DNA of 64,000 nucleotides from positions 14,739,402 through 14,803,401 of the forward strand of contig OY811973.1 of the NCBI GenBank assembly GCA_963681505.1. The letters run 5' to 3'. The notes under the pieces are model-generated. The model did no database searches, was not told the origin of the DNA, and was given only the letters and a program-made list of their open reading frames with translations. Source of the stretch: Eunapius fragilis (lineage: Eukaryota > Porifera > Demospongiae > Spongillida > Spongillidae). Positions 5,395 to 52,763 of the stretch are shown piece after piece. The position numbers and the translations under genes are program-made. How positions within the stretch are numbered: position 1 is the first letter of the stretch; each line of letters begins with the position of its first letter.

Positions 5395-5398
5395 TTAA
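5395..5398. other. Target-site duplication TTAA (right)
   Basis: TTAA directly follows the terminus. The sequence after it (TCCCACTACCAATCCCACTA) matches the sequence after the empty TTAA at 9831-9834. Confidence 0.9.
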
Positions 5399-10400: not shown

Positions 10401-11384
10401 GCAATTCGGCGCGCTGCGACGGATTGCTGCATTATCGCGGGATCAATCTGCAACAATTCGGCACAATTCGGCGCGCTGCGACCAATTGCTGCGCTTTCAC
10501 GGGTTCAATCTGTAACAATTCAGAGCAATTCGGCGCGCTGCAACGGATTGGTGCACTTTTGCGGGATCAATCTGCAACAATTCGGCACAATTCGGCGCGC
10601 TGCGACCGATTGCACCACTTTCGCGGAACCAATCTGTAACAATTCGGCGAGCTACGACGGATTGCTGCACTTTCACGGGATCAATCTGTAACAATTCAGA
10701 GCACTGCAACGGATTGGTGCACTTTCGCGGGGGCAATATGCAACAATTCGGCACAATTCAGAGCGCTTGTACCAATTGCTGCACTTTCACGGGTTCTATC
10801 TGTAACAGTTCGGCGCAATTCGGCGCGCATGGACTGATTGGTGCGCTTCGGCTGAACCAATCTGTAACAATTCGACGCAATTCGGCGTGGTACGACCGAT
10901 TGCTGCACATTGACGGGATCAATCTGTAACAACTCAGCGCAATTCGGCGCGATGCCGCAGATTGTTGCACTTTCACGGGATCAATCTGCATCAATTCGGC
11001 GCGCTGCGTCGGATTGCTGCATTATCGCGGGATCAATCTGCAACAATTCGGCACAATTCGGCGCGCTGCGACCAATTGCTGCACTTTCACGGGTTCAATC
11101 TGTAACAATTCAGCGCAATTCGGCGCGCTGCAATGGATTGGTGCACTTTTGTGGGATCAATCTGCAACAATTCGGCACAATTCGGCGCGCTGCGACAGAT
11201 TGCACCACTTTCGCGGAACCAATCTGTAACAATTCGGCGCGCTGCAACGGATTGCTGCACTTTCACCGGAACAAATCTGTAACAATTCAGCGCAATTCGG
11301 CGTGGTGTGACCGATTGCTGCACATTCACGGGATTAATCTGTAACAACTCAGCGTAATTCGGCGCGCTGCGACGGATTGCTGCA
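6942..11384 (+). repeat. Second copy of a 4.3-4.4-kb S62/S12 block
   Basis: Positions 125, 2709 and 5852 correspond to 7066, 9831 and 10287, so the whole 62-bp plus 12-bp block is present twice, once from about 1 to 6941 and once here. The first copy carries the 2,686-bp piggyBac-like insertion with its duplicated target and the second does not. A third copy starts at about 11385 but breaks off after some 70 bases at 11454. Confidence 0.8.
7420..10185 (+). repeat. 12-bp minisatellite (S12), C-rich strand, second array
   Basis: CCCACTACCAAT units with CACTAC steps, and the diverged marker block at about 9290-9325. The single TTAA at 9831-9834 is the empty counterpart of the piggyBac-like insertion. 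The frames on both strands (for example minus 8786-9808) are products of the repeat. Confidence 0.92.
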
Positions 11385-11454
11385 CTTTCACGGGATCAAT
11401 CTGTAACAATTCGGCGCAATTCGGCGCGCTGCGACGGATTGGTGCACTTTTGGA
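10186..11454 (+). repeat. 62-bp satellite (S62), array 3
   Basis: This copy of array 2 is offset by 4,435 bp. It begins with ATGGCGGGATCACTCCCCAT exactly as at 5751. The last monomer is cut inside TTGGTGCACTTTT, where the intact copies continue CGCGGGAGCAA (125-145 and 7066 onward). The next base begins the 12-bp repeat in the opposite orientation, marking a rearrangement breakpoint. Confidence 0.92.
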
Positions 11455-17200: not shown

Positions 17201-20200
17201 GGATTGGTAGTGGGATTGGTAGTGGGATTGGAAGTGGGATTGGTAGTGGTAGTGGTAGTGGTAGTGGGATTGGTAGTGGGATTGGTAGTGGGATTGGTAG
17301 TGGGATTGGTAGTGGGATTGGTAGTGGGATTGGTTGTGGGATTGGTAGTGGTAGTGGTAGTGGTAGTGGGATTGGTAGTGGGATTGGTAGTGGGATTCGT
17401 AGTGGGATTGGTAGTGGGATTGGTAGTGGGATTGGTAGTGGGATTGGTAGTGGGATTGGTAGTGGGATTGGTAGTGGGATTGGTAGTGGGATTGGTAGTG
17501 GGATTGGTAGTGGGATTGGTAGTGGGATTGGTAGTGGGATTGGTAGTGGGATTGGTAGTGGGATTGGTAGTGGGATTGGTAGTGGGATTGGTAGTGGGAT
17601 TGGTAGTGGGATTGGTAGTGGGATTGGTAGTGGGATTGGTAGTGGGATTGGTAGTGGGATTGGTAGTGTTGGTAGTTGGTAGTGGTAGTGGTAGTGGTAG
17701 TGGGATTGGTAGTGGGATTGGTAGTGGGATTGGTAGTGGGATTGGTAGTGGGATTGGTAGTGGGATTGGTTGTGGGATTGGTAGTGGTAGTGGTAGTGGT
17801 AGTGGGATTGGTAGTGGGATTGGTAGTGGGATTGGTAGTGGGATTGGTAGTGGGATTGGTAGTGGGATTGGTAGTGGGATTGGTAGTGGGATTGGTAGTG
17901 GGATTGGTAGTGGGATTGGTAGGGGGATTGGCAGTGGGATTGGTAGTGGGATTGGTAGTGGGATTGGTAGTGGGATTGGTAGCGCGATTGGTAGTGGGAT
18001 TTGTAGTGGGATTGGTAGTGGGATTGGTAGTGGGATTGGTAGTGGGATTGGTAGTGGGATTAATAGTGGGATTGGTAGTGGTAGTGGTAGAGGTAGTGGG
18101 ATTGGTAGTGGGATTGGTAGTGGGATTGGTTGTGGGATTGGAAGTGGGATTGGTAGTTGGATTGGTAGTGGGATTGGTAGTGGGATTGGTAGTGGGATTG
18201 GTAGTGGGATTTTTAGTGGGATTGGTAGTGGGATTGGTAGTGGGATTGGTAGTGGGATTGGCAGTGGGATTGGTAGTGGGATTGGTAGTGGGATTGGTAG
18301 TGGGATTGGTAGTGGGATTGGTAGTGGGATTGATAGTGGGATTGGTAGTGGGATTGGTAGTGGGATTGGTAGTGGGATTGGTAGTGGGATTGGTAGTGGG
18401 ATTGGTAGAAGGATTGGTTATGGGATTGGTAGTGGTATTGGTAGTGGTAGTGGTAGTGGGATTGGTAGTGGTAGTGGTAGTGGTAGTGGGATTGGTAGTA
18501 GGATTGGTAGTGGGATTGGTAGTGGGATTGGTAGTGGGATTGTTAGTGGGATTGGTAGTGGGATTGGTAGTGGGATTGGTAGTGGGATTGGTAGTGGAAT
18601 TGGTAGTGGGATAGGCAGTGGGATTGGTAGTGGGATTGGTAGTTGGATTGATAGTGGGATTGGCAGTGAGATTGGTAGTGGGATTGGTAGTGGGATTCGT
18701 AGTGGGATTGGTAGTGGTAGTGGTAGTGGGATTGGTAGTGGTAGGGGTAGTGGTAGTGGTAGTGGGATTGGTAGTGGGATTGGTAGTTGGATTGGTAGTG
18801 GGATTGGTAGTGGGATTGGTAGTGGGATTGGTAGTGGGATTGGTAGTGGGATTGGTAGTGGGATTGGTAGTGGGATTGGTAGTGGGATTGGAAGTGGGAT
18901 TGGTAGTGGTAGTGGTAGTGGGATTGGTAGTGGGATTGGTAGTGGGATTGGTTGTGGGTTTGGTAGTGGTAGTGGTAGTGGGATTGGTAGTGGGATTGGT
19001 AGTGGGATTGGTAGTGGGATTGGTAATGGGATTGGTAGTGGCATCGGTAGAAGTAGTGGTAGTGGTAGTGGGATTGGTAGTGGGATTTATAGTGGAAATT
19101 CTAGTGGTAGTGGGATTGGTAGGGGAATTGGTAGTGGGATTGGTAGTGGGATTGGTAGTGGGATTGGTAGTGGGATAAGTAGTGGGATTGGTAGTGGTAG
19201 TGGTAGTGGGATTGGTACTGGGATTGGTAGTGGTAGCGGTAGTGGTTATGGTATTGGGATTGGTAGTCGGATTATTAGTGGGATTGGTAGTGGGATTGGT
19301 AGTGGGATTGGTGGTGGGATTGGTAGTGGGATTGTTAGTGGGATTGGTTGTGGGATTGGTAGTGGGATTGGTAGTGGGAATGGTAGTGGGATTGGTAGTG
19401 GTAGTGGTAGTGGGATTGGTAGTGGAAGAGGTAGTGGTAGTGGTAGTGGGATTGGTAGTGGGATTGGTAGTGGTGGAGGTAGTGGTAGTGGTAGTGGGAT
19501 TGGTAGTGGGATTGGTAGTTGGATTGGTAGTGGGATTGGAAGTGGGATTGGTAGTGGGATTGGTAGTGGGATTGGTAGTGGGATTGGTAGTGGGATTGGT
19601 AGTGGGATTGGCAGTGGGATTGGTAGTGGGATTGGAAGTGGGATTGGTTGTGGTAGTGGTAGTGGTAGTGGGATTGGTAGTGGGATTGGTTGTGGGATTG
19701 GTTGTGGGATTGGTAGTGGTAGTGGTAGTGGTAGTGGGATTGGTAGTGGGATTGGTAGTGGGATTGGTAGTGGGATTGGTAGTGGTAGTGGTAGTGGGAT
19801 TGGTAGTGGGATTGGTAGTGGGATTGGTTGTGGGTTTGGTAGTGGTAGTGGTAGTGGGATTGGTAGTGGGATTGGTAGTGGGATTGGTAGTGGGATTGGT
19901 AATGGGATTGGTAGTGGCATCGGTAGAAGTAGTGGTAGTGGTAGTGGGATTTATAGTGGAAATTCTAGTGGTAGTGGGATTGGTAGGGGAATTGGTAGTG
20001 GGATTGGTAGTGGGATTGGTAGTGGGATTGGTAGTGGGATTGGTAGTGGTAGCGGTAGTGGTAGTGGTAGTGGGATTGGTAGTGGGATTATTAGTGGGAT
20101 TGGTAATGGGATTGGTAGTGGGATTGGTGGTGGGATTGGTAGTGGGATTGGTAGTGGGATTGGTAGTGGGATTGGTAGTGGGATTGGTAGTGGGAATGGT

Positions 20201-23200
20201 AGTAGGATTGGTAGTGGTAGTGGTAGTGGGATTGGTAGTGGAAGAGGTAGTGGTAGTGGTAGTGGGATTGGTAGTGGGATTGGTAGTGGTGGAGGTAGTG
20301 GTAGTGGTAGTGGGATTGGTAGTGGGATTGGTAGTTGGATTGGTAGTGGGATTGGAAGTGGGATTGGTAGTGGGATTGGTAGTGGCATCGGTAGAAGTAG
20401 TGGTAGTGGTAGTGGGATTTATAGTGGAAATTCTAGTGGTAGTGGGATTGGTAGGGGAATTGGGAGTGGGATTGGTAGTGGGATTGGTAGTGGGATTGGT
20501 GGTGGGATTGGTAGTGGGATTGGTAGTGGGATTGGTAGTGGGATTGGTAGTGGGATTGGTAGTGGGATTGGTAGTGGGATTGGTAGTGGGATTGGTGGTG
20601 GGATTGGTAGTGGGATTGGTTGTGGGATTGGTAGTGGTTGTGGTAGTGGTAGTGGGATTGGTAGTGGGATTGGTAGTGGGATTGGTAGTGGGATTGGTAG
20701 TGGGATTGGTAGTGGGATTGGTAGTGGGATTGGTAGTGGGATTGGTAGTGGGATTGGTAGTGGGATTGGTAGTGGGATTGGTAGTGGGATTGGTAGTGGG
20801 ATTGGTAGTGGGATTGGTAGTGGGATTGGTAGTGGGATTGGTAGTGGGATTGGGAGTGGGATTGGTAGTGGGATTTGTAGTGGGATTGGTAGTAGGATTG
20901 GATATGGGATTGGTAGTGGTATTGGTAGTGGTAGTGGTAGTGGGATTGGTTGTGGTAGTGGTAGTGGTAGTGGGATTGTTAGTAGGATTGGTAGTGGGAT
21001 TGGTAGTGGGATTGGTAGTGGGATTGTTAGTGGGATTGGTAGTGGGATTGGTAGTGGGATTGGTAGTGGGATTGGTAGTGGGATTGGTAATGGGATTGGT
21101 AGTGGCATCGGTAGAAGTAGTGGTAGTGGTAGTGGGATTTATAGTGGAAATTCTAGTGGTAGTGGGATTGGTAGGGGAATTGGTAGTGGGATTGGTAGTG
21201 GGATTGGTAGTGGGATTGGTAGTGGGATTGGTAGTGGTAGCGGTAGTGGTAGTGGTAGTGGGATTGGTAGTGGGATTATTAGTGGGATTGGTAATGGGAT
21301 TGGTAGTGGGATTGGTGGTGGGATTGGTAGTGGGATTGGTAGTGGGATTGGTAGTGGGATTGGTAGTGGGATTGGTAGTGGGAATGGTAGTAGGATTGGT
21401 AGTGGTAGTGGTAGTGGGATTGGTAGTGGAAGAGGTAGTGGTAGTGGTAGTGGGATTGGTAGTGGGATTGGTAGTGGTGGAGGTAGTGGTAGTGGTAGTG
21501 GGATTGGTAGTGGGATTGGTAGTTGGATTGGTAGTGGGATTGGAAGTGGGATTGGTAGTGGGATTGGTAGTGGCATCGGTAGAAGTAGTGGTAGTGGTAG
21601 TGGGATTTATAGTGGAAATTCTAGTGGTAGTGGGATTGGTAGGGGAATTGGTAGTGGGATTGGTAGTGGGATTGGTAGTGGGATTGGTGGTGGGATTGGT
21701 AGTGGGATTGGTAGTGGGATTGGTAGTGGGATTGGTAGTGGGATTGGTAGTGGGATTGGTAGTGGGATTGGTAGTGGGATTGGTGGTGGGATTGGTAGTG
21801 GGATTGGTTGTGGGATTGGTAGTGGTTGTGGTAGTGGTAGTGGGATTGGTAGTGGGATTGGTAGTGGGATTGGTAGTGGGATTGGTAGTGGGATTGGTAG
21901 TGGGATTGGTAGTGGGATTGGTAGTGGGATTGGTAGTGGGATTGGTAGTGGGATTGGTAGTGGGATTGGTAGTGGGATTGGTAGTGGGATTGGTAGTGGG
22001 ATTGGTAGTGGGATTGGTAGTGGGATTGGTAGTGGGATTGGGAGTGGGATTGGTAGTGGGATTTGTAGTGGGATTGGTAGTAGGATTGGATATGGGATTG
22101 GTAGTGGTATTGGTAGTGGTAGTGGTAGTGGGATTGGTTGTGGTAGTGGTAGTGGTAGTGGGATTGTTAGTAGGATTGGTAGTGGGATTGGTAGTGGGAT
22201 TGGTAGTGGGATTGTTAGTGGGATTGGTAGTGGGATTGGTAGTGGGATTGGTAGTGGGATTGGTTGTGGAATTGGTAGTGGGATTGGTAGTGGGATTGGT
22301 AGTGGGATTGGTAGTGGGATTGGTAGTGGGATTGGTAGTGGGATTGGTAGTGGGAATGGTAGTGGGATTGGTAGTGGTAGTGGTAGTGGGATTGGTAGTG
22401 GTAGAGGTAGTGGTAGTGGTAGTGGGATTGGTAGTGGGATTGGTAGTGGTGGAGGTAGTGGTAGTGGTAGTGGGATTGGTAGTGGGATTGGTAGTTGGAT
22501 TGGTAGTGGGATTGGAAGTGGGATTGGTAGTGGGATTGGTAGTGGGATTGGTAGTGGGATTTGTAGTGGGATTAGTAGTGGCATTGGTAGTGGTAGTGGT
22601 AGTGGGATTGTTAGTGGGATTGGTAGTGGGATTGGTAGTGGGATTGGTAGTGGGATTGGTAGTGGGATTGGTAGTGGGATTGGTAGTGGGATTGGTAGTG
22701 GGATTGGTTGTGGGATTGGTAGTGGTAGTGGTAGTGGTAGTGGGATTGGTAGTGGGATTGGTAGTGGGATTCGTAGTGGGATCGGTAGTGGGATTGGTAG
22801 TGGGATTGGTAGTGGGATTGGTAGTGGGATTGGTAGTGGGATTGGTAGTGGGATTGGTAGTGGGATTGGTAGTGGGATTGGTAGTGGGATTGGTAGTGGG
22901 ATTGGTAGTGGGATTGGTAGTGGGATTGGGAGTGGGATTGGTAGTGGGATTGGTAGTGGGATTGGTAGTAGGATTGGTTATGGGATTGGTAGTGGTATTG
23001 GTAGTGGTAGTGGTAGTGGGATTGGTAGTGGTAGTGGTAGTGGTAGTGGGATTGGTAGTAGGATTGGTAGTGGGATTGGTAGTGGGATTGGTAGTGGGAT
23101 TGTTAGTGGGATTGGTAGTGGGATTGGTAGTGGGATTGGTAGTGGGATTGGTTGTGGAATTGGTAGTGGGATTGGTAGTGGGATTGGTAGTGGGATTGGT

Positions 23201-28400: not shown

Positions 28401-31400
28401 GGTAGTGGTAGTGGTAGTGGTAGTGGGATTGGTAGTGGGATTGGTAGTGGGATTGGTAGTGGGATTGGTAGTGGGATTGGTAGTGGGATTGGTTGTGGGA
28501 TTGGTAGTGGTAGTGGTAGTGGTAGTGGGATTGGTAGTGGGATTGGTAGTGGGATTCGTAGTGGGATTGGTAGTGGGATTGGTAGTGGGATTGGTAGTGG
28601 GATTGGTAGTGGGATTGGTAGTGGGATTGGTAGTGGGATTGGTAGTGGGATTGGTAGTGGGATTGGTAGTGGGATTGGTAGTGGGATTGGTAGTGGGATT
28701 GGTAGTGGGATTGGTAGTGGGATTGGTAGTGGGATTGGTAGTGGGATTGGTAGTGGGATTGGTAGTGGGATTGGTAGTGGGATTGGTAGTGGGATTGGTA
28801 GTGGGATTGGTAGTGGGATTGGTAGTGTGATTGGTAGTGGTAGTGGTAGTGGTAGTGGGATTGGTAGTGGGATTGGTAGTGGGATTGGTAGTGGGATTGG
28901 TAGTGGGATTGGTAGTGGGATTGGTTGTGGGATTGGTAGTGGTAGTGGTAGTGGTAGTGGGATTGGTAGTGGGATTGGTAGTGGGATTGGTAGTGGGATT
29001 GGTAGTGGGATTGGTAGTGGGATTGGTAGTGGGATTGGTAGTGGGATTGGTAGTGGGATTGGTAGTGGGATTGGTAGGGGGATTGGCAGTGGGATTGGTA
29101 GTGGGATTGGTAGTGGGATTGGTAGTGGGATTGGTAGCGCGATTGGTAGTGGGATTTGTAGTGGGATTGGTAGTGGGATTGGTAGTGGGATTGGTAGTGG
29201 GATTGGTAGTGGGATTAATAGTGGGATTGGTAGTGGTAGTGGTAGAGGTAGTGGGATTGGTAGTGGGATTGGTAGTGGGATTGGTTGTGGGATTGGAAGT
29301 GGGATTGGTAGTTGGATTGGTAGTGGGATTGGTAGTGGGATTGGTAGTGGGATTGGTAGTGGGATTTTTAGTGGGATTGGTAGTGGGATTGGTAGTGGGA
29401 TTGGTAGTGGGATTGGCAGTGGGATTGGTAGTGGGATTGGTAGTGGGATTGGTAGTGGGATTGGTAGTGGGATTGGTAGTGGGATTGATAGTGGGATTGG
29501 TAGTGGGATTGGTAGTGGGATTGGTAGTGGGATTGGTAGTGGGATTGGTAGTGGGATTGGTAGAAGGATTGGTTATGGGATTGGTAGTGGTATTGGTAGT
29601 GGTAGTGGTAGTGGGATTGGTAGTGGTAGTGGTAGTGGTAGTGGGATTGGTAGTAGGATTGGTAGTGGGATTGGTAGTGGGATTGGTAGTGGGATTGTTA
29701 GTGGGATTGGTAGTGGGATTGGTAGTGGGATTGGTAGTGGGATTGGTAGTGGAATTGGTAGTGGGATAGGCAGTGGGATTGGTAGTGGGATTGGTAGTTG
29801 GATTGATAGTGGGATTGGCAGTGAGATTGGTAGTGGGATTGGTAGTGGGATTCGTAGTGGGATTGGTAGTGGTAGTGGTAGTGGGATTGGTAGTGGTAGG
29901 GGTAGTGGTAGTGGTAGTGGGATTGGTAGTGGGATTGGTAGTTGGATTGGTAGTGGGATTGGTAGTGGGATTGGTAGTGGGATTGGTAGTGGGATTGGTA
30001 GTGGGATTGGTAGTGGGATTGGTAGTGGGATTGGTAGTGGGATTGGAAGTGGGATTGGTAGTGGTAGTGGTAGTGGGATTGGTAGTGGGATTGGTAGTGG
30101 GATTGGTTGTGGGTTTGGTAGTGGTAGTGGTAGTGGGATTGGTAGTGGGATTGGTAGTGGGATTGGTAGTGGGATTGGTAATGGGATTGGTAGTGGCATC
30201 GGTAGAAGTAGTGGTAGTGGTAGTGGGATTGGTAGTGGGATTTATAGTGGAAATTCTAGTGGTAGTGGGATTGGTAGGGGAATTGGTAGTGGGATTGGTA
30301 GTGGGATTGGTAGTGGGATTGGTAGTGGGATAAGTAGTGGGATTGGTAGTGGTAGTGGTAGTGGGATTGGTACTGGGATTGGTAGTGGTAGCGGTAGTGG
30401 TTATGGTATTGGGATTGGTAGTCGGATTATTAGTGGGATTGGTAGTGGGATTGGTAGTGGGATTGGTGGTGGGATTGGTAGTGGGATTGTTAGTGGGATT
30501 GGTTGTGGGATTGGTAGTGGGATTGGTAGTGGGAATGGTAGTGGGATTGGTAGTGGTAGTGGTAGTGGGATTGGTAGTGGAAGAGGTAGTGGTAGTGGTA
30601 GTGGGATTGGTAGTGGGATTGGTAGTGGTGGAGGTAGTGGTAGTGGTAGTGGGATTGGTAGTGGGATTGGTAGTTGGATTGGTAGTGGGATTGGAAGTGG
30701 GATTGGTAGTGGGATTGGTAGTGGGATTGGTAGTGGGATTGGTAGTGGGATTGGTAGTGGGATTGGCAGTGGGATTGGTAGTGGGATTGGAAGTGGGATT
30801 GGTTGTGGTAGTGGTAGTGGTAGTGGGATTGGTAGTGGGATTGGTTGTGGGATTGGTTGTGGGATTGGTAGTGGTAGTGGTAGTGGTAGTGGGATTGGTA
30901 GTGGGATTGGTAGTGGGATTGGTAGTGGGATTGGTAGTGGTAGTGGTAGTGGGATTGGTAGTGGGATTGGTAGTGGGATTGGTTGTGGGTTTGGTAGTGG
31001 TAGTGGTAGTGGGATTGGTAGTGGGATTGGTAGTGGGATTGGTAGTGGGATTGGTAATGGGATTGGTAGTGGCATCGGTAGAAGTAGTGGTAGTGGTAGT
31101 GGGATTTATAGTGGAAATTCTAGTGGTAGTGGGATTGGTAGGGGAATTGGTAGTGGGATTGGTAGTGGGATTGGTAGTGGGATTGGTAGTGGGATTGGTA
31201 GTGGTAGCGGTAGTGGTAGTGGTAGTGGGATTGGTAGTGGGATTATTAGTGGGATTGGTAATGGGATTGGTAGTGGGATTGGTGGTGGGATTGGTAGTGG
31301 GATTGGTAGTGGGATTGGTAGTGGGATTGGTAGTGGGATTGGTAGTGGGAATGGTAGTAGGATTGGTAGTGGTAGTGGTAGTGGGATTGGTAGTGGAAGA

Positions 31401-32069
31401 GGTAGTGGTAGTGGTAGTGGGATTGGTAGTGGGATTGGTAGTGGTGGAGGTAGTGGTAGTGGTAGTGGGATTGGTAGTGGGATTGGTAGTTGGATTGGTA
31501 GTGGGATTGGAAGTGGGATTGGTAGTGGGATTGGTAGTGGCATCGGTAGAAGTAGTGGTAGTGGTAGTGGGATTTATAGTGGAAATTCTAGTGGTAGTGG
31601 GATTGGTAGGGGAATTGGGAGTGGGATTGGTAGTGGGATTGGTAGTGGGATTGGTGGTGGGATTGGTAGTGGGATTGGTAGTGGGATTGGTAGTGGGATT
31701 GGTAGTGGGATTGGTAGTGGGATTGGTAGTGGGATTGGTAGTGGGATTGGTGGTGGGATTGGTAGTGGGATTGGTTGTGGGATTGGTAGTGGTTGTGGTA
31801 GTGGTAGTGGGATTGGTAGTGGGATTGGTAGTGGGATTGGTAGTGGGATTGGTAGTGGGATTGGTAGTGGGATTGGTAGTGGGATTGGTAGTGGGATTGG
31901 TAGTGGGATTGGTAGTGGGATTGGTAGTGGGATTGGTAGTGGGATTGGTAGTGGGATTGGTAGTGGGATTGGTAGTGGGATTGGTAGTGGGATTGGTAGT
32001 GGGATTGGGAGTGGGATTGGTAGTGGGATTTGTAGTGGGATTGGTAGTAGGATTGGATATGGGATTGGT

Positions 32070-32073
32070 AGTG
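32070..32073. other. Target-site duplication AGTG (left)
   Basis: AGTG precedes the GGGTAATTC terminus and is repeated at 36260-36263. The uninterrupted paralogous site (20915-20918) has one AGTG between GGGATTGGT and GTATTGG. Confidence 0.9.
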
Positions 32074-32614
32074 GGGTAATTCTATACCCCTTCAACTCAT
32101 TTATTGACACATATGTTTCATAGTCCATAATATCCTATGGGACTTGTTTACTTCATTACTCTGTACACTTATATTAATAATTAGCCCTCAAGGTTAATTC
32201 CGTTTATTGGCTACAAGGTGTGAATAATTTAACCACAAATGTATACATTGCAATCCCTCTTTGTAGCCATTATAGCTGCACTGATGATTTTAAATACACA
32301 CACACAACCCTGTAAGGGCCATATTGCGATACCATGACCTTGACTAGTGCATGCTCAGTGATAAAAAAACACAAAAAAGTAGCATTATTATGCCGCTCCT
32401 ATAGAAATGACCACTTTTAAAGCTTTTATTCATTGAAAATAGGAAAGAGCAGGTTGTATTCTACTGTTATATGTAGCTTCTACAGCGGGACGAAACTGGG
32501 TTCCATTGAAATGCCATATAGAAAAGAGAGAGTCTTATAGGATGTTTGTCCTGTATGATTGAATTCACGAGCCATGAATGTGCTTATCAACACTTCGGTG
32601 AGCCTATCATAACT
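32074..32614 (+). repeat. Left terminal inverted repeat of the Sola-like element, 541 bp
   Basis: This pairs with 35718-36259. I see about three substitutions (for example ACTTCGGTG against ACTTTGGTG) and a 1-bp indel (CAACTCATTT against CAACTCGATTT), so the arms are roughly 99% identical. The outermost stretch GGGTAATTCTATACCCC matches exactly. It also contains TTTATT at 32425-32430, read as AATAAA on the transposase strand. Confidence 0.92.
32425..32430 (-). terminator. Candidate polyadenylation signal AATAAA for the transposase
   Basis: TTTATT on plus reads AATAAA on minus, about 460 bases beyond the transposase stop. It is the first such hexamer I find downstream. Because it lies inside the terminal inverted repeat, a copy also exists in the other arm (near 35901), so its use is uncertain. 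Confidence 0.3.
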
Positions 32615-32888
32615 GTTCTCCAAACTACCACGCTAATACATACAAATCATATCTTATATACTATTTTTGCTGGGAATGAGTCATAACATCAGCTTTTTTG
32701 CTGGGAATGTGTCATAACATCAGCTTACTGACCAATCCAACACCATCTTAGCACAGCCTAACAATACTAATCAAGTGTTCTATCTTTTTCTGCAGGGCAG
32801 CACCTAAATTATTCATCCCACTTGCACAATCATATCCTTTGCACTGATTTACATAAAGCAAGTTATTAGGTATAACATATCATTTTAA
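32615..32888. other. 3' untranslated region of the transposase gene
   Basis: This AT-rich unique sequence lies between the left inverted repeat and the stop codon. It holds a 31-bp tandem duplication (32664-32694 and 32695-32725) built on TTTTTGCTGGGAATG and TCATAACATCAGC, with one difference between copies. I see no frame of note. Confidence 0.6.
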
Positions 32889-35162
32889 TTAAGAGCGTTT
32901 GTTAACACGCTTTTTTGTTTCTTCACTGCTATTTGAGTATTCTTTAACTAAAACAAAACAGTTTGAAATGGGCTTGATACAATGCAATTTCTGCGTCCCA
33001 GGAATCCGTTTGGACAACAAAAGTCTTGCTTCCAATAGTTTTGCCTCCTCTTCGTGATCTTTATTAGTAACATATCCAAAAGACATGCCTTCGATTTCTT
33101 TTATTGCAAATTCGTACAGCTGCTTTGAATTCAATATTTGATTTTCCATGGCACGTTGTAAGCTGGCTTTAGTGGCAAGTCGTTTTAGTGTACCTGCACA
33201 TCCATCTGCTGCACTTTTGCCGTGTGAAGTTGCAAAAAAATGCCATTCTGCAGGTACACCAAAATCTTCCATGTGATGGCATAAGTTGATGAAGTTCTTC
33301 CTATTTTTATATTGGGCTGCACATCCATCTGACACATAAATTATTTTACTAGGTTTCTTTCCAAAGGTGTCAGTTAAGAACTGTATAAGGTTTTTCTGAA
33401 ACAAGTGCACAGCTATTGTATCGTGTTTTGTACACTCGGATATCATGATATAACACTTGTGTTGCAAATTTCCTTGTTCATCACGATAATAGGCAAGAAA
33501 AGGATGGATGGTTGCCTGCAGCTTATTCCAATGAAAGGATTGGGTAGCATCCTGACAAACACAACTGTAATTTTCAGAGAAGTCTGTTATGACTAAAAAT
33601 TCATTAGGCCCTAGTCTCTCCTTTGCATCAGTTACAAAGTTAGATTGTTGCTTGGCTATTAGATCGTGGCGTTTAAGTGTCTTAAGTGTTTTCATAAAGC
33701 ATGGCAGAAATTCATCCACTGGTTGTATGACAGTTTCCATTGTCGAACGATCAGTGGATGTCCATTGTTTGTATTCCACTGTATCAACCATATTGGAATC
33801 CATGATACCCTGTAGTTTAAGGTGTAATGGTTCTGTTCCTGGACACTGCTTGCATTTACCTAAATAGCACTGAATTCTTGGTGGGTTGCACATGATGGCA
33901 GCTAAACAATGTCGATAATGTGAGATGGCTCCTTCAGAGAGTGTAGCTATTTTGCTACCATAAAACATGAGCTTTGCGTTTTGGTGCAGTGAACAAACAC
34001 AAACTGAATGTGTGCCACTGGAACCTGCTAAGACACATTCTCTAGGCCTTAGCATGGCAAAGGTAGAAAAGCCAATTTTTATACCTGGGTTAAGTGTCTT
34101 AAATTGCTCATATAATTCCTTCAGATTGCAGAGTAGCAACCGTTTTTGGCAATGTTCTCGTTTACCCTCTGCAGTCATAACTGATACATAGTCCTTTCTT
34201 CCAGGCATAACTCGGCTTATGTTGTCACTATGATAAAAAGCTTTAACAAGGTTCTCAGTTGCTGCAGGAAGGCACCTGCCGTGTTTTAGATTGGGTGTAG
34301 AAAGTATACCCTTTTCTGCTACAAGCTTTTTTGCACACCTGGCCATGTAGTTAGATACTCCAAATTCTTGCATTATCTTACAAAGTGACCAACTGTTAGG
34401 CAAGACAGTCAGAATTTGTATTTTTTCACTCCTGTTAGTAGTAGTTTTGAATTTCTCCTTAAGTTGCGCTATGATCTCACTATCTGCATCACCATCAGGA
34501 TCATGGCTTACTCCTAGCTTTTCAGAGAGTACTTCTACAACTTTTCTGAGTTTCTTCTGACCATATGAACTTCCTTTCCTTTGCATCTGGCGCTTGGATA
34601 AAGGTGACACCCCAAACGAAGCAAGTCCTACATTCATTTGAATGAATTCATCTTCAACTTTACTACTGGCACTGCAATCAGTACTTTCATCCTCAGAGAT
34701 AGCATCAGTTACTTCATACAATGCAGCTTCATTTAGATCAGTTACACATGGACTGTTTTCACTTTGAGCCATCAGATCAACACTTTCTTCAGCTACTTCA
34801 GAGCCTATTCCATCTTCACCATGGCCTTCATCAGGCAGCTCAACGTCAGTTCTGTCTTCAGCTTTAGCTGTTAATTGATCTTGGTCCACGTGACTCACTC
34901 CACTTGTGTCTGCCAAATTTGAGTTTTCACTGCTACTCTGAGGTACCATGTCTGACAGATCCAAAACACTTGATGTCCTATTCTGCATGACATAAAGTTT
35001 TCTACGGCACATTGAACAAATCTTTTGTGATGGATTTAACATTAGCTCTGGAAAAGTTTCAACTAATTTATTTGATACTGGCCTCAAATCACTTCGAGCG
35101 TTGCGAGTTCTCTTCCTCGTGTGACACTTGAGTGGATCACAACAGCGTTGAAACGATGACAT
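32889..35162 (-). CDS. Sola-like transposase, 757 aa
   Basis: Predicted to bind the element's ends and carry out cut-and-paste transposition. The frame is open to 35189, but that codon is TTG; the first ATG is at 35162, giving MSSFQRCCDPLK. Residues 7-52 hold Cys7/Cys8, His14 and a CSMC pair (Cys49, Cys52), a probable zinc-binding segment. An acidic, low-complexity linker follows (about 60-175), then a helix-turn-helix-like stretch (about 259-285, SLCKIMQEFGVSNYMARCAKK). A second Cys/His group lies at about 388-440 (CVCSLH ... CYLGKCKQC). The probable RNase H-like catalytic core has DFSENY (Asp527), SDGCAAQYKN (Asp612) and HGKSAADG (Asp653 as candidate third acid). No stops or frameshifts are present. 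The third catalytic residue and the exact subgroup are inferred. Confidence 0.85.
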   Translation of the reverse strand: MSSFQRCCDPLKCHTRKRTRNARSDLRPVSNKLVETFPELMLNPSQKICSMCRRKLYVMQNRTSSVLDLSDMVPQSSSENSNLADTSGVSHVDQDQLTAKAEDRTDVELPDEGHGEDGIGSEVAEESVDLMAQSENSPCVTDLNEAALYEVTDAISEDESTDCSASSKVEDEFIQMNVGLASFGVSPLSKRQMQRKGSSYGQKKLRKVVEVLSEKLGVSHDPDGDADSEIIAQLKEKFKTTTNRSEKIQILTVLPNSWSLCKIMQEFGVSNYMARCAKKLVAEKGILSTPNLKHGRCLPAATENLVKAFYHSDNISRVMPGRKDYVSVMTAEGKREHCQKRLLLCNLKELYEQFKTLNPGIKIGFSTFAMLRPRECVLAGSSGTHSVCVCSLHQNAKLMFYGSKIATLSEGAISHYRHCLAAIMCNPPRIQCYLGKCKQCPGTEPLHLKLQGIMDSNMVDTVEYKQWTSTDRSTMETVIQPVDEFLPCFMKTLKTLKRHDLIAKQQSNFVTDAKERLGPNEFLVITDFSENYSCVCQDATQSFHWNKLQATIHPFLAYYRDEQGNLQHKCYIMISECTKHDTIAVHLFQKNLIQFLTDTFGKKPSKIIYVSDGCAAQYKNRKNFINLCHHMEDFGVPAEWHFFATSHGKSAADGCAGTLKRLATKASLQRAMENQILNSKQLYEFAIKEIEGMSFGYVTNKDHEEEAKLLEARLLLSKRIPGTQKLHCIKPISNCFVLVKEYSNSSEETKKRVNKRS

Positions 35163-35527
35163 TTGTATAACTAAAGCGATGACTGGCAAAAAAAAATCGA
35201 AGAAGCGCTAGCGTAACGAAACTTGCAAACATAGACAAAGTGTTGTGAATGGCAGGTGAACTTATAACTATATTTCGCGCGGGCATGCATCCGCGCGGTA
35301 CAATGGAGAGGGTCTTAATAACAAAGAGGTCTTTCGTAGCATAGACAAAGAGATTGCCGGTCTTTTTGTAGCGCAGAGCCTCTCTTTGTTAGAATGTTTC
35401 AAAATGGCCTAATCCCACGCAACCATTTGTAAGCCGCCGCTTACGATAGCTGAAATTAAGTATACGGTGGATATGTTATTAACATGTATGATACCACATT
35501 TTTACACACATTGCGCCCTACGGTACA
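35163..35527 (-). promoter_or_regulatory. 5' flank and probable promoter of the transposase
   Basis: This sequence lies upstream of the transposase ATG on the minus strand. It contains a TATA-like TATAGTTATAAG (about 35260-35272, minus strand) and a GC-rich hairpin CGCGCGG-N8-CCGCGCG (35276-35297). The direct repeats CATAGACAAAG (about 35230 and 35340) and GGTCTTT...GTAGC (about 35330 and 35359) are also present. Promoter function is inferred from position. Confidence 0.3.
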
Positions 35528-35691
35528 CTCCCGACTATCGTGTTCGGCAGAAGGTTAGGTATCAAGCCTATACCGGTATCGAGTGGCCTATACCTGGATT
35601 TGTACCATATGTGGGCTATTATCACATATAGCCTCACACAAGTTACAAATCCAGGAATAGGCGACCTTCCGCCAAACGCGAAGGTCGGGAG
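35528..35691. repeat. 164-bp imperfect foldback inside the Sola-like element
   Basis: The outer arms CTCCCGAC (35528) and GTCGGGAG (35684) pair. The middle arms CCTATACCTGGATTTGTA (about 35587) and TACAAATCCAGGAATAGG (about 35643) pair with one mismatch. The inner arms ATATGTG (35607) and CACATAT (35623) close the stem. The left arm has about 30 extra bases. It could be a nested miniature foldback element or a structural part of the recognition region. The 61-codon frame over it is not a gene. Confidence 0.65.
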
Positions 35692-35717
35692 ACGTTCAAC
35701 TGTACTTGTGATAGCAA

Positions 35718-36259
35718 AGTTATGATAGGCTCACCAAAGTGTTGATAAGCACATTCATGGCTCGTGAATTCAATCATACAGGACAAACATCCTATAAGAC
35801 TCTCTCTTTTCTATATGGCATTTCAATGGAACCCAGTTTCGTCCCGCTGTAGAAGCTACATATAACAGTAGAATACAACCTGCTCTTTCCTATTTTCAAT
35901 GAATAAAAGCTTTAAAAGTGGTCATTTCTATAGGAGCGGCATAATAATGCTACTTTTTTGTGTTTTTTTATCACTGAGCATGCACTAGTCAAGGTCATGG
36001 TATCGCAATATGGCCCTTACAGGGTTGTGTGTGTGTATTTAAAATCATCAGTGCAGCTATAATGGCTACAAAGAGGGATTGCAATGTATACATTTGTGGT
36101 TAAATTATTCACACCTTGTAGCCAATAAACGGAATTAACCTTGAGGGCTAATTATTAATATAAGTGTACAGAGTAATGAAGTAAACAAGTTCCATAGGAT
36201 ATTATGGACTATGAGACATATGTGTCAATAAATCGAGTTGAAGGGGTATAGAATTACCC
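35718..36259 (-). repeat. Right terminal inverted repeat of the Sola-like element, 542 bp
   Basis: Inverse of 32074-32614, ending GAATTACCC directly against AGTG. It lies on the promoter side of the transposase gene. Confidence 0.92.
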
Positions 36260-36263
36260 AGTG
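36260..36263. other. Target-site duplication AGTG (right)
   Basis: AGTG follows the terminus and continues GTATTGGTAGTGG, matching copy 1 from 20915 onward at an offset of 15,345 bp. Confidence 0.9.
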
Positions 36264-39200
36264 GTATTGGTAGTGGTAGTGGTAGTGGGATTGGTTGTGG
36301 TAGTGGTAGTGGTAGTGGGATTGTTAGTAGGATTGGTAGTGGGATTGGTAGTGGGATTGGTAGTGGGATTGTTAGTGGGATTGGTAGTGGGATTGGTAGT
36401 GGGATTGGTAGTGGGATTGGTAGTGGGATTGGTAATGGGATTGGTAGTGGCATCGGTAGAAGTAGTGGTAGTGGTAGTGGGATTTATAGTGGAAATTCTA
36501 GTGGTAGTGGGATTGGTAGGGGAATTGGTAGTGGGATTGGTAGTGGGATTGGTAGTGGGATTGGTAGTGGGATTGGTAGTGGTAGCGGTAGTGGTAGTGG
36601 TAGTGGGATTGGTAGTGGGATTATTAGTGGGATTGGTAATGGGATTGGTAGTGGGATTGGTGGTGGGATTGGTAGTGGGATTGGTAGTGGGATTGGTAGT
36701 GGGATTGGTAGTGGGATTGGTAGTGGGAATGGTAGTAGGATTGGTAGTGGTAGTGGTAGTGGGATTGGTAGTGGAAGAGGTAGTGGTAGTGGTAGTGGGA
36801 TTGGTAGTGGGATTGGTAGTGGTGGAGGTAGTGGTAGTGGTAGTGGGATTGGTAGTGGGATTGGTAGTTGGATTGGTAGTGGGATTGGAAGTGGGATTGG
36901 TAGTGGGATTGGTAGTGGCATCGGTAGAAGTAGTGGTAGTGGTAGTGGGATTTATAGTGGAAATTCTAGTGGTAGTGGGATTGGTAGGGGAATTGGTAGT
37001 GGGATTGGTAGTGGGATTGGTAGTGGGATTGGTGGTGGGATTGGTAGTGGGATTGGTAGTGGGATTGGTAGTGGGATTGGTAGTGGGATTGGTAGTGGGA
37101 TTGGTAGTGGGATTGGTAGTGGGATTGGTGGTGGGATTGGTAGTGGGATTGGTTGTGGGATTGGTAGTGGTTGTGGTAGTGGTAGTGGGATTGGTAGTGG
37201 GATTGGTAGTGGGATTGGTAGTGGGATTGGTAGTGGGATTGGTAGTGGGATTGGTAGTGGGATTGGTAGTGGGATTGGTAGTGGGATTGGTAGTGGGATT
37301 GGTAGTGGGATTGGTAGTGGGATTGGTAGTGGGATTGGTAGTGGGATTGGTAGTGGGATTGGTAGTGGGATTGGTAGTGGGATTGGGAGTGGGATTGGTA
37401 GTGGGATTTGTAGTGGGATTGGTAGTAGGATTGGATATGGGATTGGTAGTGGTATTGGTAGTGGTAGTGGTAGTGGGATTGGTTGTGGTAGTGGTAGTGG
37501 TAGTGGGATTGTTAGTAGGATTGGTAGTGGGATTGGTAGTGGGATTGGTAGTGGGATTGTTAGTGGGATTGGTAGTGGGATTGGTAGTGGGATTGGTAGT
37601 GGGATTGGTTGTGGAATTGGTAGTGGGATTGGTAGTGGGATTGGTAGTGGGATTGGTAGTGGGATTGGTAGTGGGATTGGTAGTGGGATTGGTAGTGGGA
37701 ATGGTAGTGGGATTGGTAGTGGTAGTGGTAGTGGGATTGGTAGTGGTAGAGGTAGTGGTAGTGGTAGTGGGATTGGTAGTGGGATTGGTAGTGGTGGAGG
37801 TAGTGGTAGTGGTAGTGGGATTGGTAGTGGGATTGGTAGTTGGATTGGTAGTGGGATTGGAAGTGGGATTGGTAGTGGGATTGGTAGTGGGATTGGTAGT
37901 GGGATTTGTAGTGGGATTAGTAGTGGCATTGGTAGTGGTAGTGGTAGTGGGATTGTTAGTGGGATTGGTAGTGGGATTGGTAGTGGGATTGGTAGTGGGA
38001 TTGGTAGTGGGATTGGTAGTGGGATTGGTAGTGGGATTGGTAGTGGGATTGGTTGTCGGATTGGTAGTGGTAGTGGTAGTGGTAGTGGGATTGGTAGTGG
38101 GATTGGTAGTGGGATCGGTAGTGGGATTGGTAGTGGGATTGGTAGTGGGATTGGTAGTGGGATTGGTAGTGGGATTGGTAGTGGGATTGGTAGTGGGATT
38201 GGTAGTGGGATTGGTAGTGGGATTGGTAGTGGGATTGGTAGTGGGATTGGTAGTGGGATTGGGAGTGGGATTGGTAGTGGGATTGGTAGTGGGATTGGTA
38301 GTAGGATTGGTTATGGGATTGGTAGTGGTATTGGTAGTGGTAGTGGTAGTGGGATTGGTAGTGGTAGTGGTAGTGGTAGTGGGATTGGTAGTAGGATTGG
38401 TAGTGGGATTGGTAGTGGGATTGGTAGTGGGATTGTTAGTGGGATTGGTAGTGGGATTGGTAGTGGGATTGGTAGTGGGATTGGTTGTGGAATTGGTAGT
38501 GGGATTGGTAGTGGGATTGGTAGTGGGATTGGTAGTGGGATTGGTAGTGGGATTGGCAGTGAGATTGGTAGTGGGATTGGTAGTGGGATTCGTAGTAGGA
38601 TTGGTAGTGGTAGTGGTAGTGGGATTGGTAGTGGTAGGGGTAGTGGTAGTGGTAGTGGGATTGGTAGTGGGATTGGTAGTTGGATTGGTAGTGGGATGGG
38701 TAGTGGGATTGGTAGTGGGATTGGTAGTGGGATTGGTAGTGGGATTGGTAGTGGGATTGGTAGTGGGATTGGTAGTGGGATTGGAAGTGGGATTGGTAGT
38801 GGTAGTGGTAGTGGTAGTGGGATTGGTAGTGGGATTGGTAGTGGGATTGGTAGTGGGATTGGTTGTGGGTTTGGTAGTGGTAGTGGTAGTGGGATTGGTA
38901 GTGGGATTGGTAGTGGGATTGGTAGTGGGATTGGTAGTGGCATCGGAAGAAGTAGTGGTAGTGGTAGTGGGATTGGTAGTGGGATTTATAGTGGAAATTC
39001 TAGTGGTAGTGGGATTGGTAGGGGAATTGGTAGTGGGATTGGTAGTGGGATTGGTAGTGGGATTGGTAGTGGGATAAGTAGTGGGATTGGTAGTGGTAGT
39101 GGTAGTGGGATTGGTAGTGGGATTGGTAGTGGTAGCGGTAGTGGTAGTGGTAGTGGGATTGGTAGTGGGATTATTAGTGGGATTGGTAGTGGGATTGGTA

Positions 39201-46914: not shown

Positions 46915-47878
46915 ATTATTACAGATTGAACCCGTGAAAGTGCAGCAATTGGTCGCAGCGCGCCGAATTGATACAGATTGATCCTGTGAAAGTGCAACAA
47001 TCTGCCGCATCGCGCCGAATTGCGCTGAGTTGTTACAGATTGATCCCGTGAATGTGCAGCAATCGTTCGTTCCACGCCGAATTGCACCGAATTGTTACAG
47101 ATTGGTCCAGCCGAAGCGCACCAATCCGTCCATGCGTGACTAATTGTGCCGAATTGTTACAGATAGAACCCGTGAAAGTGCAGCAATCGGTAGTAGCGCG
47201 CTGAATTGTGCCGATTTGTTGCATATTGCTCCCGCGAAAGTGCACCAATCCGTCGCAGCGCGCTGAATTGCGCCGAGTTGTTACAGATTGATCCCGTGAA
47301 TGTGCAGCAATCGGCAAACCACGCCGAATTGCGCCGAATTGGTACAGATTGATCCTGCGAAAGTGCAGGATTCCGTCGCAGCGCGCCGAATTGCGCTGAA
47401 TTGTTACAGATTTGTCTCAGTGAAAGTGCAGCAATCCGTTGCAGCGCGCCGAATTGATACAGATTGGTTCCGCGAAAGTGGTGCAATCTGTCGCAGCGCG
47501 CCGAATTGTGCCGAATTGTTGCAGATTGATCCCGCAAAAGTGCACCAATCCATTGCAGCGCGCCGAATTGCGCTGAATTGTTACAGATTGAACCCGTGAA
47601 AGTGCAGCAATTGGTCGCAGCGCGCCGAATTGTGCCGAATTGTTGCAGAATGATCCCGCGATAATGCAGCAATCCGACGCAGCGCGCCGAATTGATACAG
47701 ATTGATCCCGTGAAAGTGCAACAATCTGTCGCATCGCGTCGAATTGCGCTGAGTTGTTACAGATTGATCCCGTCAATGTGCAGCAATCGGTCGTACCACG
47801 CCGAATTGCGCCGAATTGTTACAGATTGGTTCAGCCGAATCGCACCAATCCGTCCATGCGCGCCGAATTGCGCCGAAT
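46915..47878 (-). repeat. 62-bp satellite (S62), inverted array
   Basis: About 15-16 monomers in the orientation opposite to the arrays at 1-11.45 kb. The S12/S62 junction TATTATTACAGATTGAACCC is the reverse complement of those at about 520-531 and 7409-7420. The CGTCCATGCG variant (about 47126 and 47850) corresponds to the CGCATGGACG monomer. The array is cut at about 47878 in CGCCGAATT and passes directly into the palindromic satellite. Confidence 0.92.
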
Positions 47879-49123
47879 TACCACTATACTTGACTCCTGC
47901 AGGAGTCTTACATGGAGATACTTGACTCCCGCAGGAGTCATTCATAATGACATACTTGACTCCTTCAGGAGTCATGCATTGAGATACTTGACTCCTGCAG
48001 GAGTCATACATACCAACATACTTGACTCCTGCAGGAGTCATACATAATGACATACTTGACTCCTGCAGGAGTCATACATAATGACATACTTGACTCCTGC
48101 AGGAGTCATGCATTGAGATACTTGACTCCTGCAGGAGTCATACATTCCAACATACTTGACTCCTGCAGGAGTCATACATGGATATACTTGACTCCTGCAG
48201 GAGTCATACATAATGACATGCTTGACTCCTGCAGGAGTCATGCATGGAGATACTTGACTCCTGCAGGAGTCATACATTATGACATACTTGACTCCTGCAG
48301 GAGTCATGCATTGACATAATTGACTCCTGCAGGAGTCATACATACCAACATACTTGACTCCTACAGGAGTCATACATTGAGATATATGACTACGGCAGGA
48401 GTCATACATACCACCATACTTGACTAGTGCAGGAGTCATACATGGAGATACTTGACTCCTGCAGGAGTCATTCATAATGACATACTTGACTCCTGCAGGA
48501 GACGTACATAATGACATACTTGACTCCTACAGGAGTCATGCATTGAGATACATGACTCCTGCAGGAGTCATACATACCACCATACTTGACTCCTGCAGGA
48601 GTCATGCATTGAGATACTTGACTCATGCAGGAGTCATACATACCAACATACTTGACTCCTACAGGAGTCATACATTGAGATACATGACTCCTGCAGGAGT
48701 CATACATACCACCATACTTGACTCCTGCAGGAGTCTTACATGGAGATACTTGACTCCTTCAGAAGTCATACATAATGACATACTTGACTCCTTCAGTAGT
48801 CATGCATTGAGATACTTGACTCCTGCAGGAGTCATATAAACCAACATACTTGACTCCTGCAGGAGTCATACATGGAGAAACTTGACTCCTGCAGGAGTCA
48901 TACATACCAACATACTTGACTCCTACAGGAGTCATACATTGAGATACATGACTCCTGCAGGAGTCATACATACCACCATACTTGACTCCTGCAGGAGTCA
49001 TACATGGAGATACTTGACTCCTGCAGGAGTCATACATAATGACATATTTGACTCCTTCAGGAGTCATGCATTGAGATACTTGACTACTGCAGGGGTCATA
49101 TATACCAACATACTTGACTCCTA

Positions 49124-50933
49124 CAGGAGTCATACATTGAGATACATGACTCCTGCAGGAGTCATACATACCAATATACTTGACTCCTACAGGAGTCATA
49201 CATTGGTATACTTGACTCCTGCAGGAGTCATACATAATGACATACTTGACTCCTGCTGGAGTCATGCATTGAGATACTTGACTCCTGCAGGAGTCATATA
49301 TACCAACATACTTGACTCCTACAGGAGTCATGCATTGAGATAATTGACTCCTGCAGGAGTCATACATTATGACATACTTGACTCCTGCAGGAGTCATGCA
49401 TTGAGATAATTGACTCCTGCAGGAGTCATACATACCAACATACTTGTCTAGTGCAGTAGTCATACATGGAGATACTTGACTCCTGCAGGAGTCATACATA
49501 ATGACAAACTTGACTCCTTCACGAGTCATGCAATGAGATACTTGACTCCTGCAGGAGTCATATATACCAACATACTTGACTCCTACAGGAGTCATACATA
49601 CCACCATACTTGAATCCTGCAGGAGTCTTACATGGTGATACTTGACTCCTGCAGAAGTCATACATAATGACATACTTGACTCCTTCAGGATTCATGCATT
49701 GAGATACTTGACTCCTGCAGGAGTCATATATACCAACATACTTGACTCCTACAGGAGTCATACATTGAGATACTTGACTCCTGCAGGAGTCATACATACC
49801 AACATACTTGACTCCTACAGGAGTCATACATTGAGATACATGACTCCTGCAGGAGTCATACATACCACCATACTTGACTCCTGCAGGAGTCATACATGGA
49901 GATACTTGACTCCTGCAGGAGTCATACATAATGACATACTTGACTCCTTCAGGAGTCATGCATTGAGATACTTGACTCCTGCAGGAGTCATATATACCAA
50001 CATACTTGACTCCTACAGGAGTCATACATTGAGATACTTGACTCCTGCAGGAGTCATGCATACTAGCATACTTGACTCCTGCAGAAGTCATACATAATGA
50101 CATACTTGACTACTGCAGGAGTCATACATAATGACATACTTGACTCCTGCAGGAGACGTACATAATGACATATTTGACTCCTGCAGGAGTCATGCATTGA
50201 GATACTTGACTCCTACAGGAGTCATACATACCACCATACTTGACTCCTGCAGGAGTCATGCATTGAGATACTTGACTCCTGCAGGAGTCATACATACGAA
50301 CATACTTGACTCCTACAGGAGTCATACATTGACATACATGACTCCTGCAGGAGTCATACATACCACCATACTAGACTCCTGCAGGAGTCTTACATGGAGA
50401 TACTTGACTCCTTCAGGAGTCATACATAATGACATACTTGACTCCTTCAGTAGTCATGCATTGAGATACTTGACTCCTGCAGGAGTCATACATACCAACA
50501 TAATTGACTACTGCAGGAGTCATACATTGAGATACTTGACTCCTGCAGGAGTCATATATACTTGACTCCTGCAGGACTCATACATGGAGATACTTGACTC
50601 CTGCAGGAGTCATACATACCAACATACTTGACTCCTACAGGAGTCATACATTGAGATACATGACTCCTGCAGGAGTCATACATACCACCATACTTGACTC
50701 CTGCAGGACTCATACATTGAGATACTTGACTCCTGCAGGAGTCATACATACCAACATACTTGACTCCTACAGGAGTCATACATTGAGATACATGACTCCT
50801 GCAGGAGTCATACATACCACCATACTTGACTCCTGCAGGAGTCATACATGGAGATACTTGACTCCTGCAGGAGTCATACATAATGACATATTTGACTCCT
50901 GCTGGAGTCATGCATGGAGATACTTGACTCCTG
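49124..50933. repeat. 1,810-bp tandem duplication in SPAL, copy 1
   Basis: Every landmark I compared recurs 1,810 bp later, including rare variants such as TACTTGTCTAGTGCAGTAG (about 49440 and 51250) and CATACTAGCATAC (about 50067 and 51877). Outside the pair the flanks diverge. Confidence 0.85.
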
Positions 50934-52763
50934 CAGGAGTCATACATTGAGATACATGACTCCTGCAGGAGTCATACATACCAATATACTTGACTCCTAC
51001 AGGAGTCATACATTGGTATACTTGACTCCTGCAGGAGTCATACATAATGACATACTTGACTCCTGCTGGAGTCATGCATTGAGATACTTGACTCCTGCAG
51101 GAGTCATATATACCAACATACTTGACTCCTACAGGAGTCATGCATTGAGATAATTGACTCCTGCAGGAGTCATACATTATGACATACTTGACTCCTGCAG
51201 GAGTCATGCATTGAGATAATTGACTCCTGCAGGAGTCATACATACCAACATACTTGTCTAGTGCAGTAGTCATACATGGAGATACTTGACTCCTGCAGGA
51301 GTCATACATAATGACAAACTTGACTCCTTCACGAGTCATGCAATGAGATACTTGACTCCTGCAGGAGTCATATATACCAACATACTTGACTCCTACAGGA
51401 GTCATACATACCACCATACTTGAATCCTGCAGGAGTCTTACATGGTGATACTTGACTCCTGCAGAAGTCATACATAATGACATACTTGACTCCTTCAGGA
51501 TTCATGCATTGAGATACTTGACTCCTGCAGGAGTCATATATACCAACATACTTGACTCCTACAGGAGTCATACATTGAGATACTTGACTCCTGCAGGAGT
51601 CATACATACCAACATACTTGACTCCTACAGGAGTCATACATTGAGATACATGACTCCTGCAGGAGTCATACATACCACCATACTTGACTCCTGCAGGAGT
51701 CATACATGGAGATACTTGACTCCTGCAGGAGTCATACATAATGACATACTTGACTCCTTCAGGAGTCATGCATTGAGATACTTGACTCCTGCAGGAGTCA
51801 TATATACCAACATACTTGACTCCTACAGGAGTCATACATTGAGATACTTGACTCCTGCAGGAGTCATGCATACTAGCATACTTGACTCCTGCAGAAGTCA
51901 TACATAATGACATACTTGACTACTGCAGGAGTCATACATAATGACATACTTGACTCCTGCAGGAGACGTACATAATGACATATTTGACTCCTGCAGGAGT
52001 CATGCATTGAGATACTTGACTCCTACAGGAGTCATACATACCACCATACTTGACTCCTGCAGGAGTCATGCATTGAGATACTTGACTCCTGCAGGAGTCA
52101 TACATACGAACATACTTGACTCCTACAGGAGTCATACATTGACATACATGACTCCTGCAGGAGTCATACATACCACCATACTAGACTCCTGCAGGAGTCT
52201 TACATGGAGATACTTGACTCCTTCAGGAGTCATACATAATGACATACTTGACTCCTTCAGTAGTCATGCATTGAGATACTTGACTCCTGCAGGAGTCATA
52301 CATACCAACATAATTGACTACTGCAGGAGTCATACATTGAGATACTTGACTCCTGCAGGAGTCATATATACTTGACTCCTGCAGGACTCATACATGGAGA
52401 TACTTGACTCCTGCAGGAGTCATACATACCAACATACTTGACTCCTACAGGAGTCATACATTGAGATACATGACTCCTGCAGGAGTCATACATACCACCA
52501 TACTTGACTCCTGCAGGACTCATACATTGAGATACTTGACTCCTGCAGGAGTCATACATACCAACATACTTGACTCCTACAGGAGTCATACATTGAGATA
52601 CATGACTCCTGCAGGAGTCATACATACCACCATACTTGACTCCTGCAGGAGTCATACATGGAGATACTTGACTCCTGCAGGAGTCATACATAATGACATA
52701 TTTGACTCCTGCTGGAGTCATGCATGGAGATACTTGACTCCTGCAGGAGTCATACATTGAGAT
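50934..52763. repeat. 1,810-bp tandem duplication in SPAL, copy 2
   Basis: I found no difference from copy 1 in the stretches compared. It ends where GATAATTGAC (52761) replaces GATACATGAC (50951), so about 20 bp at the boundary are shared and the exact breakpoint cannot be placed. Confidence 0.85.

Follow-up and report, generated by a model that had tools for sequence, protein, structure and literature searches.

A probable Sola-like transposon recently inserted into a minisatellite array of the sponge Eunapius fragilis

The Sola group of DNA transposons (Sola1, Sola2 and Sola3) reportedly goes back to two founding papers, by Bao et al. in 2009 and by Yuan and Wessler in 2011. To our knowledge, the group has no Pfam model, and no Sola element is known to have been mobilised under laboratory conditions. 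Here, we describe an element with Sola-like features in the genome of the sponge Eunapius fragilis (219 Mb in 24 contigs). It lies in a stretch of 64,000 nucleotides of contig OY811973.1 (positions 14,739,402 to 14,803,401; assembly GCA_963681505.1), referred to below as the window, the right end of which is ∼57 kb from the end of the 14.86-Mb contig.

The relevant passages of PMC10741241 describe Sola elements as having three-aspartate (DDD) transposases, 4-bp target-site duplications, terminal arms of 11–1124 bp and sizes mostly of 2–9 kb. Three other superfamilies invite comparison. The passages of PMC9587614 that treat Kolobok give it a TTAA duplication, RR..YY ends and a C/DxxH motif between the second and third catalytic residues, a motif common there to Kolobok, hAT, P, MuDR and Dada. 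The piggyBac elements have a TTAA duplication in the same passages and CC..GG ends in those of PMC10045372, while the ends of Chapaev (CMC) are given as 5'-CAC and GTG-3' in the corresponding part of PMC4079192.

Probably, the window element is a complete, autonomous cut-and-paste transposon from a Sola-like group with DDD transposases, and its movement within this genome was very recent. It is ordinary in kind, and unusually young and intact; its interest lies in its intactness, its freshness and its unusually clean empty site and involves no new mechanism. The element, its duplication and its empty site are as follows.

32074..36259: transposon, 4186 bp
32070..32073, plus strand: target-site duplication AGTG, left copy (a single AGTG in the empty-site paralogue)
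36260..36263, plus strand: target-site duplication AGTG, right copy
32074..32615, plus strand: left terminal inverted repeat, 542 bp, beginning GGGTAATTCTATACCCC
35719..36259, minus strand: right terminal inverted repeat, 541 bp
17676..22711, plus strand: empty-site paralogue in the minisatellite, uninterrupted, matching 28831–32073 plus 36264–38056 with no mismatch

Insertion, copies and age

An earlier note on this DNA, made from its letters alone, had proposed an intact, young Sola-like transposon inside a 12-bp minisatellite. Its limits, arms of 541 and 542 bp and AGTG duplication agree exactly with ours, as does its location in the minisatellite, an array that spans 11452–46915. Since the array contains AGTG at a density of about one per 12 bases (0.99), the duplication alone is weak evidence for an insertion. 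An empty site was sought by joining both flanks with one AGTG and matching the product against the rest of the array. A 400-bp query with the joined junction at its midpoint matches 400/400 at window position 20719, and its inner 200 bp match 200/200 at 20819 (the copy at 20719), 22007 and 37352. The paralogue around the first of these sites is identical to the left flank of the element over 3243 bp and to its right flank over 1793 bp, a total of 5036 bp with zero mismatches. This empty-site paralogue settles that the transposon was inserted with exactly 4 bp duplicated. The order of events is also given by it: the array block was duplicated first, and the transposon then entered one copy. Because no difference is found in the 5036 bp, both the block duplication and the insertion are very recent, barring conversion or an assembly error. 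The insertion is younger than a minisatellite duplication that gained no difference over this length, which serves as an internal clock. The mismatch-free duplicated block itself (17676–22711 and 28831–38056) measures at least 5036 bp and has an offset of 11,155 bp.

The genome was searched with the left arm as DNA, with at least 47 matches. Copies with matching termini and 4-bp duplications, for which the earlier note had suggested a search, were indeed found at several loci. Two copies, L009 (contig C12) and L011 (C6), are 100% identical to the window element over 4186 bp. Three others are also full length, namely L010 (C9, 99.88%), L012 (C14, 99.55%) and L013 (at 7.03 Mb of C3, the window contig, 99.43%), and a further copy, L014 (C5), is ∼93% identical and rearranged. 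Similarity among the copies starts and stops exactly at the ends of the element; when simple repeats are masked, no similarity at E 1e-3 links the 1-kb flanks of the six near-identical copies to one another. Five of these six (window, L009, L010, L011 and L013) keep the 757-codon frame intact, as the earlier note had it for the window element, whereas L012 has a frameshift. A pattern of the terminal 25 bases, with one base open, has 12 genomic matches (six per strand), and its reversed control has 0.

Perfect 4-bp duplications flank five of the eight window-family copies with both ends seen: AGTG in the window, AGGT in L010, L011 and L022, and AGTA in L014. L022 is only 2052 bp long and has no match to the transposase protein. 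For the four families described here together, 10 of the 15 copies examined at both ends have perfect duplications; these counts exclude diverged copies for which a single end was seen.

Between the two arms of the window element there are three substitutions and one indel. Such left/right differences are common to all six near-identical copies at alignment columns 26 and 45, and to five of them at columns 69 and 525. Other changes occur in both arms (column 291 in L013, column 390 in L012, and column 465 in L012 and L013, the last also in one arm of L010) or in a single arm (columns 3, 6, 312, 361, 469 and 508). As the differences recur across copies and some are paired, they are inherited with the element, and the arms are in part homogenised. 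Arm-to-arm identity was thus rejected as a measure of age, since left/right differences are common to several copies. The recency that the earlier note had deduced from the near-identical arms holds, on the grounds of copy identity and the empty site, while its argument from the arms does not. Copy-to-copy identity and the empty site point to greater youth than arm similarity did. The full-length identity of copies at unrelated sites, together with the empty site, strongly supports an element that is young and probably recently mobile.

The window family has close company in this genome. A search with the protein gave at least 73 matches, and open frames of 700 aa or more, with a match free of stops, are present at no fewer than 25 loci, of which five belong to the window family. 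One sister family (L039–L041) is 3861 bp long with 487-bp arms, and its copies, 99.87–100% identical, are flanked by perfect duplications TAGC, GGAG and TGTT. A second (L042–L043) is 3923 bp long with 568-bp arms, and its 100% identical copies have perfect duplications TGTA and GGAG. Duplications are thus perfect in all five sister copies, and both sister families are as fresh as the window family. The ends common to the window family and the two sister families are GGGTMATTYYATA, and the ends of the families are GGGTAATTCTATA, GGGTCATTCCATA and GGGTCATTTCATA. L044 and L045 make up a fourth family, with 544-bp arms in L044 and the end GAGTAATTCCATA. There are therefore three families with intact genes and with copies 99.4–100% identical at different sites; the window family and its two sisters offer good natural material for studying the group biochemically for the first time and for solving a structure of its transposase.

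The transposase

The gene and the segments recognised in its product are listed below.

32889..35162, minus strand: transposase gene, from ATG (35162) to stop, 757 codons plus stop in one uninterrupted frame
35007..35144, minus strand: N-terminal zinc-type motif, C7–C52 (CCDPLKCH ... CSMC), putatively zinc-binding
34311..34436, minus strand: helix-turn-helix-like segment, residues ∼243–284, equivalent to the HTH_23 stretch in L038
33843..34001, minus strand: second Cys/His cluster, residues 388–440 (C388, C390, H393, C425, C432, C437 and C440)
33144..33602, minus strand: putative RNase H-like catalytic core, residues 521–673 (D527, D612 and D653)

The window protein was aligned with ten relatives from the genome that are 43–57% identical (alignment A1). 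The three features that the earlier note had read in the protein, a zinc-type N-terminus, a helix-turn-helix-like segment and a set of Asp motifs, are all present. In the N-terminal motif (C7, C8, H14, C49 and C52), which may bind zinc, H14, C49 and C52 are invariant in 11/11 proteins and C7 and C8 nearly so. All seven Cys/His residues of the second cluster are likewise invariant in 11/11, as are D527, D612 and D653, with a spacing of D-(83–93)-D-40-D. The helix-turn-helix-like segment has a sole profile match, to Pfam HTH_23 in L038 (E 6e-4, 20 bits), which is below the cut-off of 24.6. Against the ten relatives with long open frames, nonsynonymous divergence (dN) is 0.36–0.54 and synonymous divergence (dS) is saturated, from which we conclude that selection has preserved the protein.

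A single-sequence AlphaFold model has a mean pLDDT (predicted local distance difference test) of 38 and a pTM (predicted template modelling score) of 0.26. In this low-confidence model, the first half of the core contains a predicted strand at 521–523, strands at 551–560 and 566–576 and a helix at 584–600; the second half contains a strand at 606–610, a short helix at 612–617, a helix at 621–633, a strand at 641–644 and a helix at 649–673. D527 would thus follow strand 1, D612 would follow strand 4, and D653 would be in the helix after strand 5. This is the arrangement of the catalytic acidic residues in RNase H-like transposases, and the model may be taken as a hint of such a fold.

In the proposed mechanism, the zinc-type and helix-turn-helix-like modules of the 757-residue protein would bind it to the long inverted arms, and excision of the element would be catalysed by D527, D612 and D653 within an RNase H-like fold. 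The ends would be joined to the target with a 4-bp stagger, the repair of which would give rise to the 4-bp duplication. Transposition is presumably by cut-and-paste rather than copy-and-paste, and the family may be active today.

Nine of the eleven aligned transposases (L030–L038) carry an extra C-terminal region of ∼100 residues (GYV..W.G..FLHP), without which the window family and L029 are found. No convincing remnant of this domain was detected in the window element (best E 0.13).

Placement and alternatives

The 4-bp duplication, the 542/541-bp arms and the length of 4186 bp all fall within the description of Sola in the relevant passages of PMC10741241, and for its DDD character the match extends only to the conserved residues (D-(83–93)-D-40-D). 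The Sola-like label of the earlier note fits these features, as a placement by description and not by sequence. Differences are also apparent. The Sola2-type elements of the amoeba Dictyostelium fasciculatum, in the part of PMC3627910 that deals with them, have 12–13-bp arms and AT-rich duplications, whereas the window family has 542/541-bp arms and its five perfect duplications all begin with AG.

Several observations weigh against a recently moved Sola-like transposon. Membership in Sola is a matter of described features and is best called consistent and tentative. The poor model leaves the RNase H fold not established, and the helix-turn-helix match is restricted to one of the 11 members (L038), is below the cut-off, and does not extend to the window protein. 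Three of the eight window-family copies have no perfect duplication: L009 (ACGT/ACCT) and L013 (AGTA/AGTC) agree at three of four bases, and L012 has none. In the fourth family (L044 and L045), a clean duplication is seen in neither of the two copies, one of which has a damaged arm. The dN/dS of 0.51–0.66 against five degraded copies (L014, L015, L018, L020 and L023) is uninformative on selection. Finally, gene conversion or assembly may account in part for the identity of the copies, and conversion or an assembly error could have erased differences in the duplicated array.

The alternative that survives best, although it is unlikely, is that the element moves by the same mechanism and belongs to a distinct DDD superfamily with 4-bp duplications, either undescribed or, for example, Academ. 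Consistent with this, the relatives in the genome form a group with similar termini, the Sola placement is based on layout and Asp residues alone, and database searches gave no transposase identity. The window protein had no significant match in Pfam (best E 0.063, not to a transposase family), and no member of alignment A1 matched a transposase family there. Nothing significant was found for the window protein in NCBIfam, among PDB sequences, in phages (tblastn) or prokaryote genomes, or in viral contigs (one 61-residue piece); nor did the alignment match PDB or have relatives in viral contigs or prokaryote genomes, although animal sequences are scarce or missing in all of these collections, so that absence from them says little. 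Against PHROGs the alignment gave weak matches only (best E 0.0038), and a text search of the literature for five peptide and terminal sequences returned unrelated matches only. On the other side, the Sola features that can be compared are all found in the element, and the absence of a Pfam match is expected if Sola has no Pfam model, as we believe. A stronger form of this alternative, a separate, undescribed DDD superfamily that comprises the element and its many intact relatives here, with 4-bp duplications, long arms ending in GGGTMATTYYATA and a transposase with two Cys/His clusters, and mobile today, seems to us distinctly improbable.

Assignment to Kolobok, piggyBac or Chapaev (CMC) is very improbable, as each fails on a defining feature given in the source passages cited above. 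All three are compatible with a 4-bp duplication (3–4 bp for Chapaev, which also has in common the inverted-repeat ends and an acidic catalytic triad), and the GG..CC ends would fit the 5'-RR..YY-3' of Kolobok (PMC9587614). However, TTAA is found in 0/10 perfect duplications, unlike in Kolobok and piggyBac, and the C/DxxH motif between the second and third Asp of Kolobok is absent from 11/11 aligned proteins. The ends, GGG..CCC, differ from the CC..GG of piggyBac (PMC10045372) and the CAC..GTG of Chapaev (PMC4079192), and the protein has no Pfam transposase match, a further difference from piggyBac.

That an old, dead element was multiplied by segmental duplication or gene conversion, without recent transposition, is the least credible explanation: some paired arm changes suggest homogenisation and the minisatellite itself was duplicated, but the flanks of the six copies are dissimilar over 1 kb, similarity is confined exactly to the element, and the empty paralogue contradicts it for the window copy.

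Other features and the satellite surroundings

Two repeats lie inside the transposon and outside its gene and arms.

32664..32725, plus strand: two copies of a 31-bp direct repeat, between the left arm and the gene
35583..35665, strand undefined: imperfect inverted repeat of 31 bp (84%), on the upstream side of the gene and adjoining the right arm

No Rfam match was found in 31900–36500. The second base of the duplication is G in nine of the ten perfect cases as oriented, which may be chance because the orientation between families is arbitrary. Tandem arrays are found at or next to the junction in four of the eight window-family copies (the window, L009, L011 and L022, with only a 2-copy 13-mer in L009) and in none of six copies of the other three families. 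There is perhaps an insertion preference for tandem arrays, for which these counts are too few to make a claim.

At its end (L046, the last 1 kb), the window contig carries a further satellite of 706-bp period; the final 1000 bases show no telomeric repeat. A 66-bp satellite, the unit of which holds the palindrome GACTCCTGCAGGAGTC, extends over more than 16 kb at 47886–64000 of the window. A 62-bp satellite (CAATTCGGCGCAATTCGGCGCGC...) at 1–530, 5771–7419, 10206–11450 and 46915–47879 alternates with the 12-bp arrays. The 12-bp unit is TACCAATCCCAC (or a rotation of it) in the arrays 530–2681, 5397–5748 and 7419–10183, and its reverse complement in the long array 11452–46915 that holds the transposon; the satellite field is therefore inverted near 11450.

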